Position numbers and translations under genes: made by a program | Source of the DNA: Ornithinimicrobium cerasi | Lineage (GTDB): Bacteria > Actinomycetota > Actinomycetes > Actinomycetales > Dermatophilaceae | Length of the DNA stretch: 64,000 nt | Direction of reading: 5' to 3' | Assembly (NCBI RefSeq): GCF_003702705.1 | Contig: NZ_QZMN01000001.1 | Coordinates: 186,001 to 250,000, forward strand | Notes under the pieces: generated by a model | The model's database searches: none | Told to the model about the DNA's origin: nothing | Seen by the model: only the letters and a program-made list of their open reading frames with translations | In this document: positions 2,545 to 26,995 of the stretch, piece by piece | Position numbering within the stretch: the stretch's first letter is position 1 | How the letters are laid out: every line of letters begins with the position of its first letter

Positions 2545-2566
2545 AACGTAGGCGGGGGCACCGACA
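2545..2566 (-). promoter_or_regulatory. RecA/LexA-independent damage promoter (PafBC-type) for the exonuclease fusion
   Basis: On the minus strand TGTCGGTG (2566-2559), eight bases, then TACGTT (2550-2545). This matches the mycobacterial consensus TGTCRGTG-N8-TANNNT in every specified position. Predicted transcription starts at or one base from ATG 2537, giving a leaderless mRNA. Confidence 0.75.
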
Positions 2567-2606: not shown

Positions 2607-2628
2607 TGTCGGTGGGTCCCTCTAGCGT
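2607..2628 (+). promoter_or_regulatory. RecA/LexA-independent damage promoter (PafBC-type) for the Cys-rich protein
   Basis: TGTCGGTG (2607-2614), eight bases, then TAGCGT (2623-2628): a full match to TGTCRGTG-N8-TANNNT. It mirrors the minus-strand copy at 2545-2566; the two form an 11-base inverted repeat (2560-2570 against 2603-2613). A small palindrome CCTGTC-CC-GACAGG (2569-2582) sits between them. Confidence 0.75.
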
Positions 2629-17213: not shown

Positions 17214-17420
17214 GGGTGCTCCTCGGGCAGGGGTTGGGGCCGGCCGCAGATGGGCCTGCTGCCTGCGTCGAGCCTATCCCGGTGGAGTGAGCGGCGGGAC
17301 GGGCGCACGAGGTGCGCCGGCCCGGGCCATCCCCTCCCTGGCCCGGGCCGCTCCCATCATGGCGCGACGGGTGCATCGGGTCGGGCGTCCGTCCACAGGG
17401 GCAGGGCGGGGGTTGAACCC

Positions 17421-17442
17421 TGTCGGTGCTGGATCGTACAGT
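17421..17442 (+). promoter_or_regulatory. RecA/LexA-independent damage promoter (PafBC-type) of the translesion operon
   Basis: TGTCGGTG (17421-17428), eight bases, TACAGT (17437-17442): a full match to TGTCRGTG-N8-TANNNT. Expected transcription start is near 17449, giving a leader of about 65 bases before the first gene at 17515. It lies in the 301-base gap between the divergent idsA-like gene and the operon. Confidence 0.8.
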
Positions 17443-17450
17443 TGTTCTAG

Positions 17451-17466
17451 TCGAACATATTTTCGA
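17451..17466 (+). promoter_or_regulatory. LexA-type SOS box
   Basis: TCGAAC-ATAT-TTTCGA, differing by one base from the actinobacterial SOS consensus TCGAAC-N4-GTTCGA. It begins just downstream of the predicted transcription start, where LexA would block the polymerase. Confidence 0.75.
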
Positions 17467-17514
17467 TTCCGCCGGGCGGGGACGCGTGTGCGGTGCTGAG
17501 CGAGGAGGCCGGGC

Positions 17515-17853
17515 ATGAGCAGGCGGTACCAGGAACAGGTGGAGGTCAGGCTCGGGGACCCGGTCGAGCACCGGGTGCGTCTGGAGCCTGGGTGGCGGCG
17601 GGGGACCCGGACCATGGCCGAGGTGCCCACCCTCTTCCTCTGGCAGGGGCGGGTGCACGTCGTGCGAGGCGTGCTGGCCCAGTGGACGCAGAGGCTGCCC
17701 TGGTGGCGGGACCTGGGCGCCGGCAGCACCGACGCGGACTCCCTGGAGCAGGAGGTGTGGCGCGTCGAGGCCAGCGCCGGCCGGACCCACGAGATGGGGG
17801 TCTACGACCTGGTCCACGGAGGGCGGTGGCTCCTGGAACGGGTCAGCGACTGA
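17515..17853 (+). CDS. DUF6504 family protein, first gene of translesion operon
   Basis: 112 residues, soluble. The core TLFLWQGRVHVVRGVLAQW then LPWWRD is the conserved part of DUF6504, whose members sit next to DnaE2 and Y-family polymerase genes in many actinobacteria; no biochemical function is known to me. The fold is probably a small beta barrel (alternating charged and hydrophobic strands, aromatic WW pair), which would suit a nucleic-acid- or polymerase-binding adaptor, but that is inference. ATG at 17515 follows GAGGAGG at 17502-17508. It is the gene closest to the dual damage/SOS promoter, with a 76-base gap to the HEPN gene. Confidence 0.8.
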   Translation: MSRRYQEQVEVRLGDPVEHRVRLEPGWRRGTRTMAEVPTLFLWQGRVHVVRGVLAQWTQRLPWWRDLGAGSTDADSLEQEVWRVEASAGRTHEMGVYDLVHGGRWLLERVSD

Positions 17854-17929
17854 GCCCACCCCGAGGAGCACCGGGCCGGGCGAGCACCCAGCAGGACGAG
17901 CGCAGCATCACCGACGACGGAGGACACCC

Positions 17930-18382
17930 ATGAGCACCACCACCACCCAGGCACCCGCCGCGGGTCCGGGCGGGCCGGTCGGCACCGTCCTGGACCTGCT
18001 CGAACGTTCGCGGGGCGGGTTGCTCGTGGCCTGCCACAGCAGCACCGCGTCCGAGCGCTACACCCAGGCGCACCTCGCCGCCCTGCGCGCCGGGGCGGCG
18101 CTCCTCGCGGCCCGCAGCGCGCCCAGCCGGCGGGCCCGCCCGCGGAGCGTCTGGGAGGTCCTGCCCACGGTCGCCCCGGAGCTGACCGAGTGGGCGGTCT
18201 TCTTCGCCGAGTCGGGCCGTCGTCGGCTCGCGCTGGAGCGCGGGTCGACAGCCGTGACCGCACGCGATGCTGACGACCTCGTCCGTGCCGGCGAACGCTT
18301 CCTGGAGCTGGTCCGGGGGACGTTGCACCTGCCCTGCGGCTCACCGCTGCCGGCGGAGCTGACCCCGGTGGGTCGGGGTTGA
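17930..18382 (+). CDS. SAV_6107 family HEPN-domain protein
   Basis: 150 residues, all helical. The N-terminal half LLVACHSSTASERYTQAHLA matches the SAV_6107 HEPN family; RYTQAH is an R-x4-H arrangement, the pattern of HEPN ribonucleases, though here it lies in an early helix and catalysis is unproven. The middle VWEVLPTVAPELTEWAVFFAES is the family's second conserved block. HEPN proteins act as RNases in toxin or defence systems or as non-catalytic partners; in actinobacteria this subfamily is linked to the dnaE2/dinB locus. ATG at 17930 follows GGAGGA. Its stop is one base before the dnaE2 GTG. Confidence 0.82.
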   Translation: MSTTTTQAPAAGPGGPVGTVLDLLERSRGGLLVACHSSTASERYTQAHLAALRAGAALLAARSAPSRRARPRSVWEVLPTVAPELTEWAVFFAESGRRRLALERGSTAVTARDADDLVRAGERFLELVRGTLHLPCGSPLPAELTPVGRG

Positions 18383-18383
18383 C

Positions 18384-21300
18384 GTGGCGGTCGACGACTT
18401 CGTGCACCTCCACGTCGCCTCGAGCGCGTCCATGCGCTTCGGCGCCTCACGCCCCGACGAGCTGGTGGCGCTCGCGGCCGACCACGGGCAGTCGGCTCTC
18501 GCTCTCACCGACCGTGACGGGCTCTACGGCGCGGTCCGGTTCGTGCGTGCCTGTGCCGAGGCGGGGGTGGCGCCGGTGCTGGGCGTGGACCTCGCGCTGG
18601 CCGGCCCGCGTGACGGGGACGGGTCCGCGCGTGTGGCGCTGACCGGTGCCGCCGCGCTCGGGAGGCCTGAGGGGCCCTGGCCGGACGCACCGGGTCCACC
18701 GGGCGGGTCCGAACGGTTCATCGGAGCTCGGCCCGCCCGGGCGCAACCGGTCAAGGGCGGCACCCTGGTCGACGACCAGCAGCCGCGGGTCGTCGTGCTC
18801 GCCCGTGGCCAGGAGGCCGGGCTGGCGCCCGGCACCGGGTGGGCCCGGTTGTGCCGGCTGGTGACCCAGACCCACCTGGCGGGGGAGCGGGGCACTCCTC
18901 GGACCCGCCCGGACCTGCTCGCCCGGGCCGCGACCCCGGTGGACGGCACCGCACCCGTCGTCGTGCTGCTCGGGCCTGACTCCGACGTCGGCCGGGCGGT
19001 CCTGGCGCGACGGCGCGACCAGGCGCGCGCCCTGCTGCGTGCCTGGCAGGAGGTGCTGCCCCCCGACGCCCTGCGGGTCGAGCTCGTCTGCCACGGTGGG
19101 CCCGGGGACAGCCCGGCGAGCCTGGGCCAGGCGTCGCGGCTGTGGGCCCTGGCCCGTGAGTGCGAGGTCCCCGCTGTGCTCACCGCCGCGGTCCGGCACG
19201 CCGTCCCGGAGCAGGCGCGGGTGGTCGACGTCCTCGACGCCGCCCGGCGGATGGTCGCGCTCGACGAGCGGCACCTGGACCGGGTGAGCACCGCCGGCCA
19301 TCTCGCCGGCACCGCCACCATGCACGCCACCGCCGCCTGGCTGGAGGAGGCCGGGGGTGCGGACGCACGGGCCGAGGAGCTGCTGCGCGACACCCTCTCG
19401 CTGGCAGCCGAGTGCCACCAGGACCCGCGCTCCGACCTCGGCATCGGCTCCGTCCACCTGCCCGAGCCCGAGATCCTCGGCGTCAGCGGTGTGGGTCAGG
19501 CGCACCACGTCCTCACCGAGCGCTGCGGGCAGGCGGTGGCCACCCGCTACCCCGGCGCGGGCACGGCATACCTGGAGCGGATCCGGACCCGCCTCGACGA
19601 CGAGCTGGGCGTGATCGCCGGGCTCGGCTACCCCACCTACTTCCTCACCGTGGCGCAGGTCTGCGACCTCATCCGTGACAACGGGGTGCGGGTCGCCGCC
19701 CGCGGCTCGGGCGCGGGGAGCCTGGTGACCTACCTGCTGGGGATCAGCGGCGTCGACCCGATGGAGCACGGTCTGCTCATGGAGCGGTTCTGCTCACCGC
19801 TGCGCGCCCAGCTGCCCGACATCGACATCGACGTGGAGTCGGCGCGCCGCACCGAGATGTACGAACGGATCCTCGAACGTTTCGGCTCGGAGCGGGTGAC
19901 GTGCGTGTCGATGGTCGAGACCTACCGGGTCCGGCACGCGATCCGGGACGTCGCGGCCACGCTGGGGATGCCGCCGGGGGAGATCGACGCCATCGCCAAG
20001 GCGTTCCCGCACATTCGGGCCAGGGACGCGCGGGCCGCGATCCGCGACCTCCCCGAGCTGCGGCGCCAGGGGCTCGACGCGCCCCGCATGCAGCTGCTGA
20101 TGGAGCTGGTCGAGTCGCTGGACGGCCTGCCGCGGCACATCGCCATGCACCCCTGCGGGGTCATCCTGTCCAACACCGGGCTGCTGGACCGGACCCCGGT
20201 CGAGGCGAGCTGGCTGGGCTTCCCCATGAGCCAGTTCGACAAGGACGACGTCGAGGAGCTCGGGCTGCTCAAGCTCGACGTGCTCGGCATCCGGATGCAG
20301 TCCGCGATGGCGCACGCCGTCGAGGAGGTGGCGCGCGTCGACGGGACGCGCATCGACCTGGACGACCGGGCGGACGTCCCCCTGGACGACCCCGACACCT
20401 TCGCGCTCGTCCAGTCCACCCGGACCCTCGGCTGCTTCCAGATCGAGTCTCCCGGGCAGCGCGAGCTCGTCGGCAAGTTCGCCCCGGAGACGTTCACCGA
20501 CATCATCATCGACATCTCCCTGTTCCGACCCGGGCCGGTGAAGTCGGACATGATCCGTCCCTTCCTGCACGCGCGGCAGGGCTGGGGGGAGCCCGACCAC
20601 ATCCACCCCAGCCTCAGCCCCTACCTCGCCGAGACCTGCGGGGTCGTCGTCTTCCACGAGCAGGTGCTCCAGATCGTGGCCGAGACCACCGGCGTCAGCC
20701 TGGCCCAGGCGGACGAGGTCCGCCGGGCCATGGGCTCTCCGCAGGGCCAGCAGGAGGTCGAGGTGTGGTGGCGCCGGTCCGCGGCCGACCGGGGCTACCG
20801 GCCCCCCGAGCTCGAGCGGATCTGGGAGGTGCTGGCGGCCTTCGCCTCCTTCGGGTTCTGCAAGGCGCACGCCGCGGCGTTCGCGCTGCCGACCTACCAG
20901 TCGGCGTGGCTCAAGACCCACCACACCGCGGCCTTCCTCTCGGGCGTGCTCACCCACGACCCGGGGATGTACCCCAAGCGCCTCATCCTCGACGAGGCGC
21001 GGACCATGGGGGTCCACGTGCTCGGTCTCGACGTCAACGCGTCCGCGGAGGTCTACCGGGTGGAGCGGGTCGGGCCCGGGTATGCCGAGGGCGGGCTCGA
21101 CCCGCTCGCCCCGGCCCCCCGGGGCGCGCTCCCCGCCGAGCGGCCGGGGCTGCCGCCGGTCGACCGGGTCGACGAGGTGATGGCGGCGGTGGAGCACCGG
21201 GCGGGGGAGTACGGCATCCGGCTCTCCCTCGCCGACGTCCGGGGGATCAGCGACGACGAGGTGACCCGGATCGTCGCGGGGCAGCCCTACGCCTCGCTGG

Positions 21301-22340
21301 CCGACCTGTGGCAGCGGGCCCGGCCCAGCCGCCCCACGGCCGAGCGGCTGGTCCTCGCCGGCGGGCTCGACGCCCTTCACCAGGTCGGGCGGTGCAGCCG
21401 CGGCCGCGGGGGGCTGACCCGTCGGGACCTGCTGCTGCACGTGCGGGAGCTGGACCGGTGGACCCGGCACGCCACCAGCGGGGCGGGTCGTCGTCGCGCC
21501 GGACGGCGGCTGGCCGCACCGACGCTCGCTCCGGCCGTGGAGGGGGAGGTGGCGTCCCGCACGCGTGAGCAGGCGGTGGGGCGACGGGCCTGGCACCCGC
21601 AGGACGCCACGGCGACCCAGCTCACCCTGCAGCTGGGGGACGAGCCGAGCCCGGTGACCGGCAGCGGGCTGCCCGAGATGACCGAGCACGAGCAGCTGCA
21701 GGCCGAGCTGGAGGTGCTCGGCATGGACGTCAGCCGGCACGTCGTCGAGGGGTTCGGCCCGATGCTCGCCGACCTGGGTGTCACCCGGTCCCGCGAGCTG
21801 CTGTCCCGGCGCAACGGCTCGGAGGTGCTCATCGCCGGTGCCAAGGTCGCGACGCAGACGCCCCCGGTCCGGTCCGGGAGGCGGGTGGTCTTCCTGACCC
21901 TCGACGACGGCACCGGCCCGGCCGACGCCACCTTCTTCGAGGATGTGCAGGGCCCCTTCGCCGCCACCGTGTTCCACTCCTGGCTGCTGCTCGTGCGTGG
22001 CGTGATGCGTCGCACCGGCCCGCGGGGGCTGTCGGTGCGCGCCACCGGTGCGTGGGAGCTGGGCGCCCTTCTCCCGGTGTGGGAGCGCGGCGGGGTGCCG
22101 GAGGTGCGTGCGGCGATGGCGGAGAGCGAGGAACGCGCGCGGTTCCTGCTGGCGGAGGCCGAGGAGCTGGCGCGCCAGCAGGCGGCGGGCGAGGAGCCCC
22201 GCGCACGGCGCGTGCTCGTGCACGCCTCGGGGTTCCGCCAGTCCCCCTACGCCGACATCCGCCCCGCCGGCGGGGACACCCGCCAGGGCGTCCCCGGCTC
22301 CAAGCTGTGGCACTCCAGCCCCGGGAGCTCCGGGTGGTGA
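18384..22340 (+). CDS. dnaE2: error-prone DNA polymerase DnaE2 (ImuC)
   Basis: 1318 residues. N-terminal PHP domain (VHLHVASSASMRFGASRP, ALTDRDGLYGAV), then the polymerase III alpha core: AARGSGAGSLVTYLLGISGVDP, catalytic LPDIDIDVES near residue 478, RHIAMHPCGVILS, DVLGIRMQSA, FHEQVLQI and the finger motif FASFGFCKAHAAAFA. A tandem HhH region and an OB fold (EVLIAGAKVATQ, VVFLTLDDGTGPADATFF) close it. Length and architecture fit DnaE2, the translesion enzyme of damage-induced mutagenesis, rather than replicative DnaE1. It is directly coupled to the HEPN gene upstream and overlaps dinB downstream (GTGA), so all four genes form one transcription unit under damage promoters. Confidence 0.92.
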   Translation: MAVDDFVHLHVASSASMRFGASRPDELVALAADHGQSALALTDRDGLYGAVRFVRACAEAGVAPVLGVDLALAGPRDGDGSARVALTGAAALGRPEGPWPDAPGPPGGSERFIGARPARAQPVKGGTLVDDQQPRVVVLARGQEAGLAPGTGWARLCRLVTQTHLAGERGTPRTRPDLLARAATPVDGTAPVVVLLGPDSDVGRAVLARRRDQARALLRAWQEVLPPDALRVELVCHGGPGDSPASLGQASRLWALARECEVPAVLTAAVRHAVPEQARVVDVLDAARRMVALDERHLDRVSTAGHLAGTATMHATAAWLEEAGGADARAEELLRDTLSLAAECHQDPRSDLGIGSVHLPEPEILGVSGVGQAHHVLTERCGQAVATRYPGAGTAYLERIRTRLDDELGVIAGLGYPTYFLTVAQVCDLIRDNGVRVAARGSGAGSLVTYLLGISGVDPMEHGLLMERFCSPLRAQLPDIDIDVESARRTEMYERILERFGSERVTCVSMVETYRVRHAIRDVAATLGMPPGEIDAIAKAFPHIRARDARAAIRDLPELRRQGLDAPRMQLLMELVESLDGLPRHIAMHPCGVILSNTGLLDRTPVEASWLGFPMSQFDKDDVEELGLLKLDVLGIRMQSAMAHAVEEVARVDGTRIDLDDRADVPLDDPDTFALVQSTRTLGCFQIESPGQRELVGKFAPETFTDIIIDISLFRPGPVKSDMIRPFLHARQGWGEPDHIHPSLSPYLAETCGVVVFHEQVLQIVAETTGVSLAQADEVRRAMGSPQGQQEVEVWWRRSAADRGYRPPELERIWEVLAAFASFGFCKAHAAAFALPTYQSAWLKTHHTAAFLSGVLTHDPGMYPKRLILDEARTMGVHVLGLDVNASAEVYRVERVGPGYAEGGLDPLAPAPRGALPAERPGLPPVDRVDEVMAAVEHRAGEYGIRLSLADVRGISDDEVTRIVAGQPYASLADLWQRARPSRPTAERLVLAGGLDALHQVGRCSRGRGGLTRRDLLLHVRELDRWTRHATSGAGRRRAGRRLAAPTLAPAVEGEVASRTREQAVGRRAWHPQDATATQLTLQLGDEPSPVTGSGLPEMTEHEQLQAELEVLGMDVSRHVVEGFGPMLADLGVTRSRELLSRRNGSEVLIAGAKVATQTPPVRSGRRVVFLTLDDGTGPADATFFEDVQGPFAATVFHSWLLLVRGVMRRTGPRGLSVRATGAWELGALLPVWERGGVPEVRAAMAESEERARFLLAEAEELARQQAAGEEPRARRVLVHASGFRQSPYADIRPAGGDTRQGVPGSKLWHSSPGSSGW

Positions 22341-23596
22341 GCCTCCTCGACCCCCGTCCTGTCGACGACGCCCCGTTCGGCGGCGGGCAGGTCGAGGGGA
22401 GGCCGGCCGCCGCAGGGCAGGACGACGTCACCGTGCTCCACGTGGACATGGACGCCTTCTACGCCGCGGTGTCGCTCATCGACCGTCCCGAGCTCCGGGG
22501 GCTCCCGGTGGTCGTGGGCGGCGGGTGGCGCAGCGTCGTCCTCTGCGCCACCTACGAGGCGAGAGCCTTCGGGGTCCGGTCGGGGATGCCGATGGCGACC
22601 GCCCGGAGGCTGTGCCCGCCGGCGGTGGTGGTGCGCCCTGACATGGACCGCTACGCCAGGGTGTCCGAGGCCGTCATGGCGGTCTTCGCCGAGGTGACCC
22701 CGGTGGTCGAGCCCGTGTCCATGGAGGAGGCGTTCCTCGACGTGTCGTCAGTCCGGAGGCAGTGGGGCGACGCCGCCAGGGTCGGCCAGTGGATCCGGGA
22801 CACGGTCGCCGACGAGCAGCAGATCACCTGCTCGGTGGGAGGAGCACCGAGCAAGGCCGTGGCCAAGATGGCCTCCCGGGTAGCCAAGCCCGACGGGATG
22901 CGGCTGGTCACCCGGGGCGAGGTCGTCCCGTTCCTGCACCCCATGCCGGTCGGTGCGCTGTGGGGGGTGGGTGAGGCGACCGAGGCCGAGCTGAGCCGGC
23001 TCGGGCTGCACACGGTGGCCCAGCTGGCGCACGTGCCGCTGGAGACCCTGCGCAGGGCGATGGGCGACCACGCCGCCGCCCACCTGCACGCCCTGGCGTG
23101 GGGGCAGGACACCGACCCGGTCACCCCGGCCAGGGTGGAGCGCAGCGTGGGCTCCTCGCAGACCTTCTCCCACGACGTCGACGACCCGGACGCGATCCGC
23201 CGCCAGCTCCTCCACCTCGCCGAGCGCACCTGCAGCCGGATGCGCCACGGAGAGGTTCTCGGTCGCACGGTCGTCCTCACCGTCCGGTTCTCCGACTTCA
23301 CCACGATCACCCGGTCCCGCACCGTCCCGGTGCCGACCGACGTCACTCGCGAGGTCCACGCCGTCGCCAGCGCGCTGTACGACGCGCTGGGACTGCAACG
23401 GGCCCGGATCCGCATGCTGGGGGTGCGGGTGCAGGGGATCACCGAGGCTGACCAGACGCTCGTCCAGGGCCGGCTCGACGAGCCGGAGCACGGCTGGCGC
23501 GAGGCCGAGCGGGCGATGGACCGCGCGGCCGCCCGGTTCGGCTCCCAGGCCGTGCTTCCAGCGAGCCTCCTCAGACCCGTCCGCACGTCAGCATGA
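22337..23596 (+). CDS. dinB: Y-family DNA polymerase IV (DinB)
   Basis: 419 residues. Catalytic motifs HVDMDAFYAAVSLIDRPEL (Asp) and VSMEEAFLDVSS (Asp-Glu), steric region ATYEARAFGVRSGMP, thumb helix-hairpin PMPVGALWGVGEATEAELSRLG, and a little-finger domain with VGSSQTFSHDV. All catalytic acids are present, so it should be an active polymerase, unlike the inactive ImuB subunit that partners DnaE2 in mycobacteria. I see no clear QxxLF-type clamp motif at the C-terminus. GTG at 22337 overlaps the dnaE2 stop by four bases, which decides the start. It probably acts with DnaE2 in bypass of lesions, with DinB inserting and DnaE2 extending or the reverse. Confidence 0.93.
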   Translation: MSLLDPRPVDDAPFGGGQVEGRPAAAGQDDVTVLHVDMDAFYAAVSLIDRPELRGLPVVVGGGWRSVVLCATYEARAFGVRSGMPMATARRLCPPAVVVRPDMDRYARVSEAVMAVFAEVTPVVEPVSMEEAFLDVSSVRRQWGDAARVGQWIRDTVADEQQITCSVGGAPSKAVAKMASRVAKPDGMRLVTRGEVVPFLHPMPVGALWGVGEATEAELSRLGLHTVAQLAHVPLETLRRAMGDHAAAHLHALAWGQDTDPVTPARVERSVGSSQTFSHDVDDPDAIRRQLLHLAERTCSRMRHGEVLGRTVVLTVRFSDFTTITRSRTVPVPTDVTREVHAVASALYDALGLQRARIRMLGVRVQGITEADQTLVQGRLDEPEHGWREAERAMDRAAARFGSQAVLPASLLRPVRTSA

Positions 23597-26719: not shown

Positions 26720-26995
26720 GGGCGGGTCTCCTCTCGGGCTCCGGTCGACGGTCGCGGATGAGCGCCTCCGGGTGCATCACAGTCAAGCATGTCAATGCTC
26801 TACCACCCTGTCTTTGTGCCCGGAACGTCGAAGGTTTCGCTCAGCGCGTAGACGGGAACTTTTCGGCTGGCCAGGACACCCGTCCCCGGGACGGCAGGTC
26901 GCCCGCCCACCACCCGTGCGCGGAGGGCGCGCCTGGCGGGCCGTGTCGGTGGCCGCGGTTAGGCTGCCGAGGTCCACCCAGACGAAGGAGACCCC
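26720..26995. promoter_or_regulatory. divergent promoter region between DUF7455 and parE
   Basis: This gap is less GC-rich in its first half. It contains AGCAT/ATGCT arms (26786-26790 and 26795-26799), a minus-strand TTGACA in the same place, and GGAAC-type words near 26822 and 26855. The parE promoter elements are listed separately. No small ORF convinced me. Confidence 0.5.
26944..26965 (+). promoter_or_regulatory. RecA/LexA-independent damage promoter (PafBC-type) of parE
   Basis: TGTCGGTG (26944-26951), eight bases, TAGGCT (26960-26965): full match to TGTCRGTG-N8-TANNNT. Start of transcription is expected near 26972, leaving about 24 bases of leader that contain AAGGAG (26985-26990). Confidence 0.75.

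Follow-up and report, generated by a model that had tools for sequence, protein, structure and literature searches.

Stacked PafBC-type and LexA-type sites on one predicted promoter of a dnaE2 operon in Ornithinimicrobium cerasi, and their recurrence in actinobacteria

Actinobacteria keep two damage pathways that sense single-stranded DNA (ssDNA), and why they do so has been posed as an open question (PMC11804915). Several genes of the PafBC regulon are reported to have SOS boxes (LexA sites) as well, recA being under both regulators (PMC8223512, PMC6789036), and for mycobacterial recA two promoters are described (PMC11804915). According to the same source, PafBC binds its -26 motif only when polymerase is on the promoter (PMC11804915). 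As for the polymerases that raise mutation, DinB2, a frequent companion of DnaE2 in Streptomyces, is described as lacking activity (PMC12926913). Here we consider a stretch of 64,000 nucleotides of Ornithinimicrobium cerasi (contig NZ_QZMN01000001.1, positions 186,001 to 250,000; hereafter the window), which holds the operon DUF6504-HEPN-dnaE2-dinB, and in particular the promoter of this operon, where a PafBC-type -26 element is followed by a predicted LexA operator. In our opinion, and with a probability that we put at about 0.72, PafBC raises and LexA gates one and the same sigma-A promoter here, which makes it a two-sensor lock on mutagenesis.

The first-pass annotation of the window claimed a perfect PafBC-type motif and, nine bases on, an SOS box one base off consensus, and both proved exact in position. 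We take TGTCRGTG-N8-TAnnnT to be the PafBC-type consensus and TCGAACNNNNGTTCGA that of the SOS box, the letters of both being presumably those of the mycobacterial literature. The string TGTCGGTG-N8-TACAGT (17421-17442, plus strand) has a single match in the window and none in 100 dinucleotide shuffles. The box TCGAACATATTTTCGA has one mismatch to TCGAACNNNNGTTCGA; there is no other match in the window at three or fewer mismatches, and again none in the shuffles. Eight bases (17443-17450) separate the two, the box beginning nine after the motif ends. If TACAGT is taken as -12 to -7, transcription would start near 17449, TGTCGGTG would lie at -28 to -21 and the SOS box at about +3 to +18 (Table 1); this register agrees with the -26 position published for the PafBC element (PMC11804915, PMC10693628). 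Chance co-occurrence of the two boxes was considered as well, and it is ruled out by the shuffles, by backward-read patterns and by the gene-blind scan described below.

A look for both boxes at the same spacing in related genomes had been proposed as a check, and their loss in close relatives was named as evidence to the contrary. Indeed both boxes are kept, the stack being present in 10 of 10 genus genomes examined, with the -26 element at one mismatch or fewer in all ten, yet the spacing is not rigid. The offset, counted from the start of TGTC to the start of the SOS box, is 30 in the window and 21, 29, 30, 30, 33, 34, 37, 38 and 38 in the others. Within the family, PF18726 (HEPN_SAV_6107) was found in 136 of 149 genomes, and upstream DNA was examined for 133 of them (G147, G167 and G197 left aside), some stretches ending at contig ends, as in G145. 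A strict stack (at most one mismatch per box, offset 18-40) precedes 64 of these 133 operons and occurs in 27 of 47 genera, where the counts are of species, uncorrected for kinship, and not of independent lineages; the offset is 28-33 in 54 of the 64. Twenty rounds of dinucleotide shuffles of the same promoters gave no operon with a stack, and in 21 of the 133 both boxes are perfect. Widening the window of search to -60 to +90, with one mismatch per box, raises the number to 67, of which three have boxes 77 to 89 apart and hence are not stacks.

Since the element had been used to find the stacks, it is of value that it re-emerges in an alignment independent of it. For 124 family promoters (related species again counted separately), anchored on the SOS box and on a TAnnnT 0-16 bases before it, the positions -28 to -21 read T.74, G.86, T.80, C.91, G.68, G.81, a free position and G.74, i.e. 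TGTCGG-G. The free position, -22 (T.33), is one at which our pattern from the single genome demanded T. The same alignment contains TTGAC at -37 to -33, with 0.71 to 0.74 per position. The SOS box is perfect in 101 of the 133 family operons and within one mismatch in 125. In other families of the order 26 operons were examined; the SOS box is perfect in 23 of them, and the PafBC element is found at one mismatch or fewer in 2, at two in a further 4 and in a worse state in 20; in family f9 the SOS box stands immediately behind TTGACA in four of five operons. As far as predicted sites go, the LexA part is kept more widely than the PafBC part, and in some lineages the putative PafBC element lies in the spacer of what is otherwise a sigma-A promoter of LexA type. 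A separate observation concerns genus g72 (loci L152, L160 and L181), where three of four promoters have no PafBC block and share TTGACG-N19-TA with GCATGG in the spacer, perhaps for another activator.

To look at the layout irrespective of the gene behind it, a gene-blind pattern was used, TGTCRGTG-N8-TANNNT followed by CGAACNNNNGTTC after 3-25 bases (offset 24 to 46). The scan covered 393 genomes of the class and found the pattern in 52, among them 3 of the 8 that represent the family, and the backward-read pattern gave none among the matches listed. Fifty of the 55 stacked places were examined, and their offsets are 28 to 34 except for three at 37. A scan of named genomes added at least 120 stacked loci, including Rhodococcus, Nocardioides, Jiangella, Pseudonocardiaceae, Brevibacterium, Rhodoluna and Planktophila. 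Stacks also turned up in bins labelled Spirochaetaceae, Coriobacteriia and Bifidobacterium (L271, L242 and L319), which may reflect either mislabelled bins or transfer.

As to the genes downstream, we examined 170 stacks (30 + 120 + 20), which amount to 153 distinct contexts, given that the same species occur in two collections. HEPN, DUF6504 or DnaE2 lies within 3.5 kb downstream in 131 of them, and HEPN in 119; DnaE2 follows at least 42, a lower bound because many loci are too short to reach dnaE2. In 26 stacks (locus L283 and 25 others, mostly Rhodococcus) the stretch examined has mraZ behind HEPN, at up to about 2.1 kb in 24 of them, and lacks dnaE2; nine HEPN stacks have dinB, likewise without dnaE2 in the stretch examined. 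The remaining 39 comprise 24 with a small LysM-type protein, three with dnaB, one with dinB only and 11 without an assigned gene, six of the latter ending within 520 bases of the motif. The LysM-type stacks (L104-L109, L238 and L353 are among them) presumably recall the SOS-induced LysM protein that we take to lie beside mycobacterial lexA. As to the dnaB stacks (L102, L240 and L265), two of the three are from genomes named Mycobacterium.

Both regulators are encoded in the genome of O. cerasi. The genes pafB and pafC, both of the WYL type, lie side by side on contig C7, not far from pafA (between them and the pafA/FKBP-like genes there is a gene, locus L381 1950-2888, that looks glutaminase-like by eye), and lexA is on contig C66. 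The proteins match solved PafBC chains, PafC with E 8.9e-58 to 6sj9 and 5.7e-57 to 7p5x, and PafB with E 6.9e-52 to 9fnd, 8.6e-52 to 7p5x and 2.2e-48 to 6sj9. TGTCRGTG-N8-TANNNT has 20 sites in the whole genome and none in the reversed control. To each site was assigned the longest reading frame behind it, and 10 of the 19 sites other than ours were checked against Pfam; nine gave a family (RecA, DNA polymerase III alpha, UvrD, a RadA-like ATPase, a GyrB/ParE-type subunit, an exonuclease with GIY-YIG, a metallophosphatase, a helix-turn-helix protein and an ADP-ribosylglycohydrolase) and one gave none. It should be added that the genome holds two WYL proteins besides PafB and PafC, so the -26 motif might be used by another WYL-type activator, as SiwR of M. 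smegmatis is reported to use the -26 region (PMC10693628). We regard this as extremely improbable: the conserved triplet of SiwR is given as GGA and its main target as one operon (PMC10693628), while a set of 20 sites that includes repair genes suits PafBC better.

Among the 20 sites, the one of dnaE2 alone has an SOS-like box (fewer than four mismatches, from -60 to +120), the other 19 having none. The recA gene of the same genome carries an SOS-like box with two mismatches 84 bases upstream of its PafBC motif, a tandem arrangement familiar from mycobacteria. In 14 of the 393 genomes the boxes occur in this order, SOS box first, and recA accounts for 5 of the 10 loci fetched. These recA genes with both kinds of site, together with the SOS boxes that a review mentions for several genes under PafBC (PMC8223512), speak for control in which either signal suffices and PafBC-bound polymerase overrides LexA. 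However, the boxes of recA are in tandem with the SOS box upstream, giving two promoters, whereas the operator of the dnaE2 operon overlaps the sole start region seen, and PafBC requires that polymerase be on the promoter first. Hence we find such either-or control at the dnaE2 operon highly unlikely.

Four of the 20 sites lie in the window, where about 0.3 would be expected under an even spread: 2545-2566 (minus strand), 2607-2628 (plus), 17421-17442 (plus) and 26944-26965 (plus). The first two are divergent and point to an exonuclease/GIY-YIG protein (768-2537, minus) and to a protein of 102 aa (2652-2960, plus) that contains cysteines and has no Pfam match.

Given these elements, the gated promoter proposed above would work as follows. 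A single sigma-A promoter would drive all four genes, and its -26 element would let PafBC, once activated by ssDNA, engage RNA polymerase (sigma adaptation). In the undamaged cell LexA, sitting at about +3 to +18, would keep polymerase off, and because PafBC needs promoter-bound polymerase, LexA would thereby block PafBC too. Upon damage, ssDNA would give rise to RecA filaments and these to the cleavage and removal of LexA; the same ssDNA would activate PafBC, which would raise initiation once LexA is gone, the output being LexA release times PafBC boost. The chemistry of LexA and PafBC is published for other species, and it is by analogy that we expect both to act at this promoter. That PafBC raises the promoter while LexA gates it had been suggested at the outset; the layout of -26 element, -10 hexamer and operator at the predicted start fits this suggestion, as does the presence of PafB, PafC and LexA, while a -35-like element had been missed.

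That element is the first of several points that weigh against our interpretation, and it deserves attention. All ten genus stacks have TTGA with a spacer of 17-19 bases to the -10 hexamer. If spacers of 16-21 bases are counted, 41 of the 64 stacks of the family and 100 of the 170 of the class have it too, most often with a spacer of 19, as against only 1 of the 19 other PafBC-type sites of the genome and 0.6% of random positions. It suggests that sigma-A may fire the promoter weakly without PafBC after LexA leaves. In addition, 69 of the 133 family operons have no strict stack; since the SOS box is still there in 61 of them at one mismatch or fewer, it is the PafBC part that is weak or absent in these. 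Nor does the presence or absence of PafBC account for the motif loss, since PafC is near-universal in the family (147 of 149 genomes, and every one of the 136 good ones). The genus offsets of 21 to 38 imply no fixed protein contact, and a rigid spacing with contact between LexA and PafBC is thus ruled out. Our own genome is absent from the 52 with a gene-blind stack because its SOS box is one base off; it has no perfect CGAACNNNNGTTCG anywhere, and its places with one mismatch number nine, against four in the reversed control. Its LexA regulon looks small, which weakens the evidence from a single genome and is the reason why the comparison across genomes matters. From mycobacteria it is reported that dnaE2 in biofilms of M. 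smegmatis is expressed mainly via recA (PMC12702967), and that dnaE2 of M. tuberculosis is RecA-dependent, yet still induced with both pathways lowered (PMC8151990).

Some of the observations above, namely the TTGA in all ten genus promoters and, outside the family, the 23 perfect SOS boxes against only 2 PafBC elements at one mismatch or fewer among 26 operons of the order, would also suit a plain SOS promoter, in which LexA alone acts on the sigma-A promoter TTGAAC-N18-TACAGT and TGTCGGTG is a functionless leftover. The dnaE2-dinP genes of S. venezuelae, LexA-controlled and with a PafBC motif that their authors report as not conserved (PMC9380542), fit it too. Against this stands the conservation of the -26 block, which in the family equals or exceeds that of the -35 element under an anchoring that ignores the block, and which in the genus stays within one mismatch in 10 of 10 genomes; the same motif also precedes recA and other repair genes in the genome of O. 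cerasi. For these reasons we consider the plain SOS promoter unlikely and retain the promoter that is raised by PafBC and gated by LexA.

Table 1. Predicted promoter elements and genes of the operon, in coordinates of the window
Feature	Position	Strand	Remark
-35-like hexamer TTGAAC	17413..17418	+	18 bases ahead of -10
PafBC-type -26 element TGTCGGTG	17421..17428	+	-28 to -21 of predicted start
-10 hexamer TACAGT	17437..17442	+	-12 to -7 in assumed register
Predicted transcription start	17449	+	placed from -10 position, 7 past its last base
Predicted LexA operator (SOS box) TCGAACATATTTTCGA	17451..17466	+	about +3 to +18
DUF6504 protein, 112 aa	17515..17853	+	PF20114, E 1.3e-14
HEPN_SAV_6107 protein, 150 aa	17930..18382	+	PF18726, E 1.5e-32
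dnaE2, error-prone C-family polymerase, 1318 aa	18384..22340	+	
dinB, Y-family polymerase	22337..23596	+	acids D37, E130, E131

The gene order and the families of the operon were given correctly in the first-pass annotation. DUF6504 and HEPN are separated by 76 bases, HEPN and dnaE2 by one base, and dnaE2 and dinB overlap by four; the closest named relative seen, Ornithinimicrobium pekingense (locus L345), shares 76% identity in DUF6504 and 80% in HEPN. The claim that DinB keeps its catalytic acids needs a qualification: all three are present, yet at one position an E takes the place of the D that is usual in DinB. The tail of the protein resembles the RecA N-terminus, as judged by eye alone. 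Two small genes indeed lead the operon, but to call both products uncharacterised goes too far, since DUF6504 has recognisable relatives. Its profile was run against two annotated ImuB-type proteins and matches the C-terminus of each, with E 2.5e-4 and 6.9e-5, although both matches fall short of the curated cut-off, and a profile comparison gave E 9.3e-5 with a probability of only 59; DUF6504 is probably a stand-alone relative of the ImuB C-terminal domain. The Y-polymerase of the operon has no DUF6504 match, the domain being a separate gene, unlike in the ImuB fusion. There is no ImuA among the four operon genes, and no whole-genome search for imuA was made. DnaE2, DinB with its three acids and a tail that may be of RecA-binding type, the ImuB-C-like subunit and the HEPN protein would together constitute the putative mutasome.

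The HEPN_SAV_6107 protein has the HEPN fold. The canonical RNase motif RX4-6H is not in its last long helix (residues 111-131), and 139 of 232 homologues have R[YFH]xx[AS]H in helix 2. A role in toxin-antitoxin systems or phage defence was considered and rejected, given that PADLOC has no match for HEPN or DUF6504 at E 0.1, that the canonical last-helix RNase motif is lacking, and that the matches to toxins reflect the fold only.

If our interpretation is correct, mutagenesis may be switched on only when two damage sensors agree. A promoter that appears to need both sensors makes the question of why there are two pathways testable, and the design recurs at mutation-raising genes. One may speculate further, although we hold this wider idea only tentatively and somewhat doubt it ourselves, that there is a dedicated actinobacterial promoter class, composed of -35, PafBC -26, -10 and a LexA operator at the start, which acts as a coincidence detector of two independent ssDNA sensors. 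The cell would keep it for its most hazardous responses to damage, namely mutagenic polymerases, a division-type LysM protein and, most of all, HEPN_SAV_6107, which would itself be a core damage-response effector. The reason for giving HEPN_SAV_6107 this place is that its gene retains the stacked promoter even if it lies upstream of the mraZ cell-division cluster, as in Rhodococcus, or, as in Nocardioides, is accompanied by dinB but not by dnaE2. Irrespective of this idea, the HEPN_SAV_6107 family gains its first functional setting so far as the literature searched shows.

With respect to novelty, our search of the literature, to which subscription papers were mostly outside, found no description of the stacked layout and no link of the SAV_6107 HEPN to DNA damage, and both appear to be new within that scope; dual control itself is already known (recA, tandem promoters). 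The composite promoter is real and conserved, it is presumably a variant of known dual control, and the wide link to the HEPN family is its most novel part. Mycobacterial recA, with a PafBC-dependent P1 and a LexA-dependent P2 (PMC11804915, PMC8223512), is alike in that both regulators are reported to act on one damage gene, but it has two separate promoters, whereas the dnaE2 operon has one, with the SOS box at the predicted start; in the actinobacterial recA loci examined, the SOS box is upstream of the PafBC motif, unlike in the stacked promoter. The dnaE2-dinP pair of S. venezuelae likewise joins dnaE2 to a Y-family gene, with SOS boxes just upstream, and is described as damage-induced and LexA-controlled; it differs by having two bound SOS boxes and by a PafBC motif reported as not conserved (PMC9380542). 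The HEPN superfamily survey lists the same family and fold as HEPN-M (SAV_6107), its row having 'No' and '-' in what we presume to be the columns for RNase motif and context (PMC3710099), whereas here HEPN is tied to damage-type promoters. The mycobacterial ImuA'-ImuB-DnaE2 mutasome is also a damage-controlled DnaE2 cassette with accessory proteins, but its Y-polymerase, ImuB, is inactive and carries the C-terminal domain as a fusion, while the operon of O. cerasi has a DinB with three acids and encodes the ImuB-C-like domain in a gene of its own. In gene content the putative complex of DnaE2B, an active PolY, a stand-alone ImuB-C and RecA (Tessaracoccus lapidicaptus type) is similar, for there too DnaE2 is reported to be encoded together with a Y-polymerase that seems active and a protein resembling ImuB-C (PMC12926913); the main text of that paper makes no mention of HEPN, LexA or a promoter.

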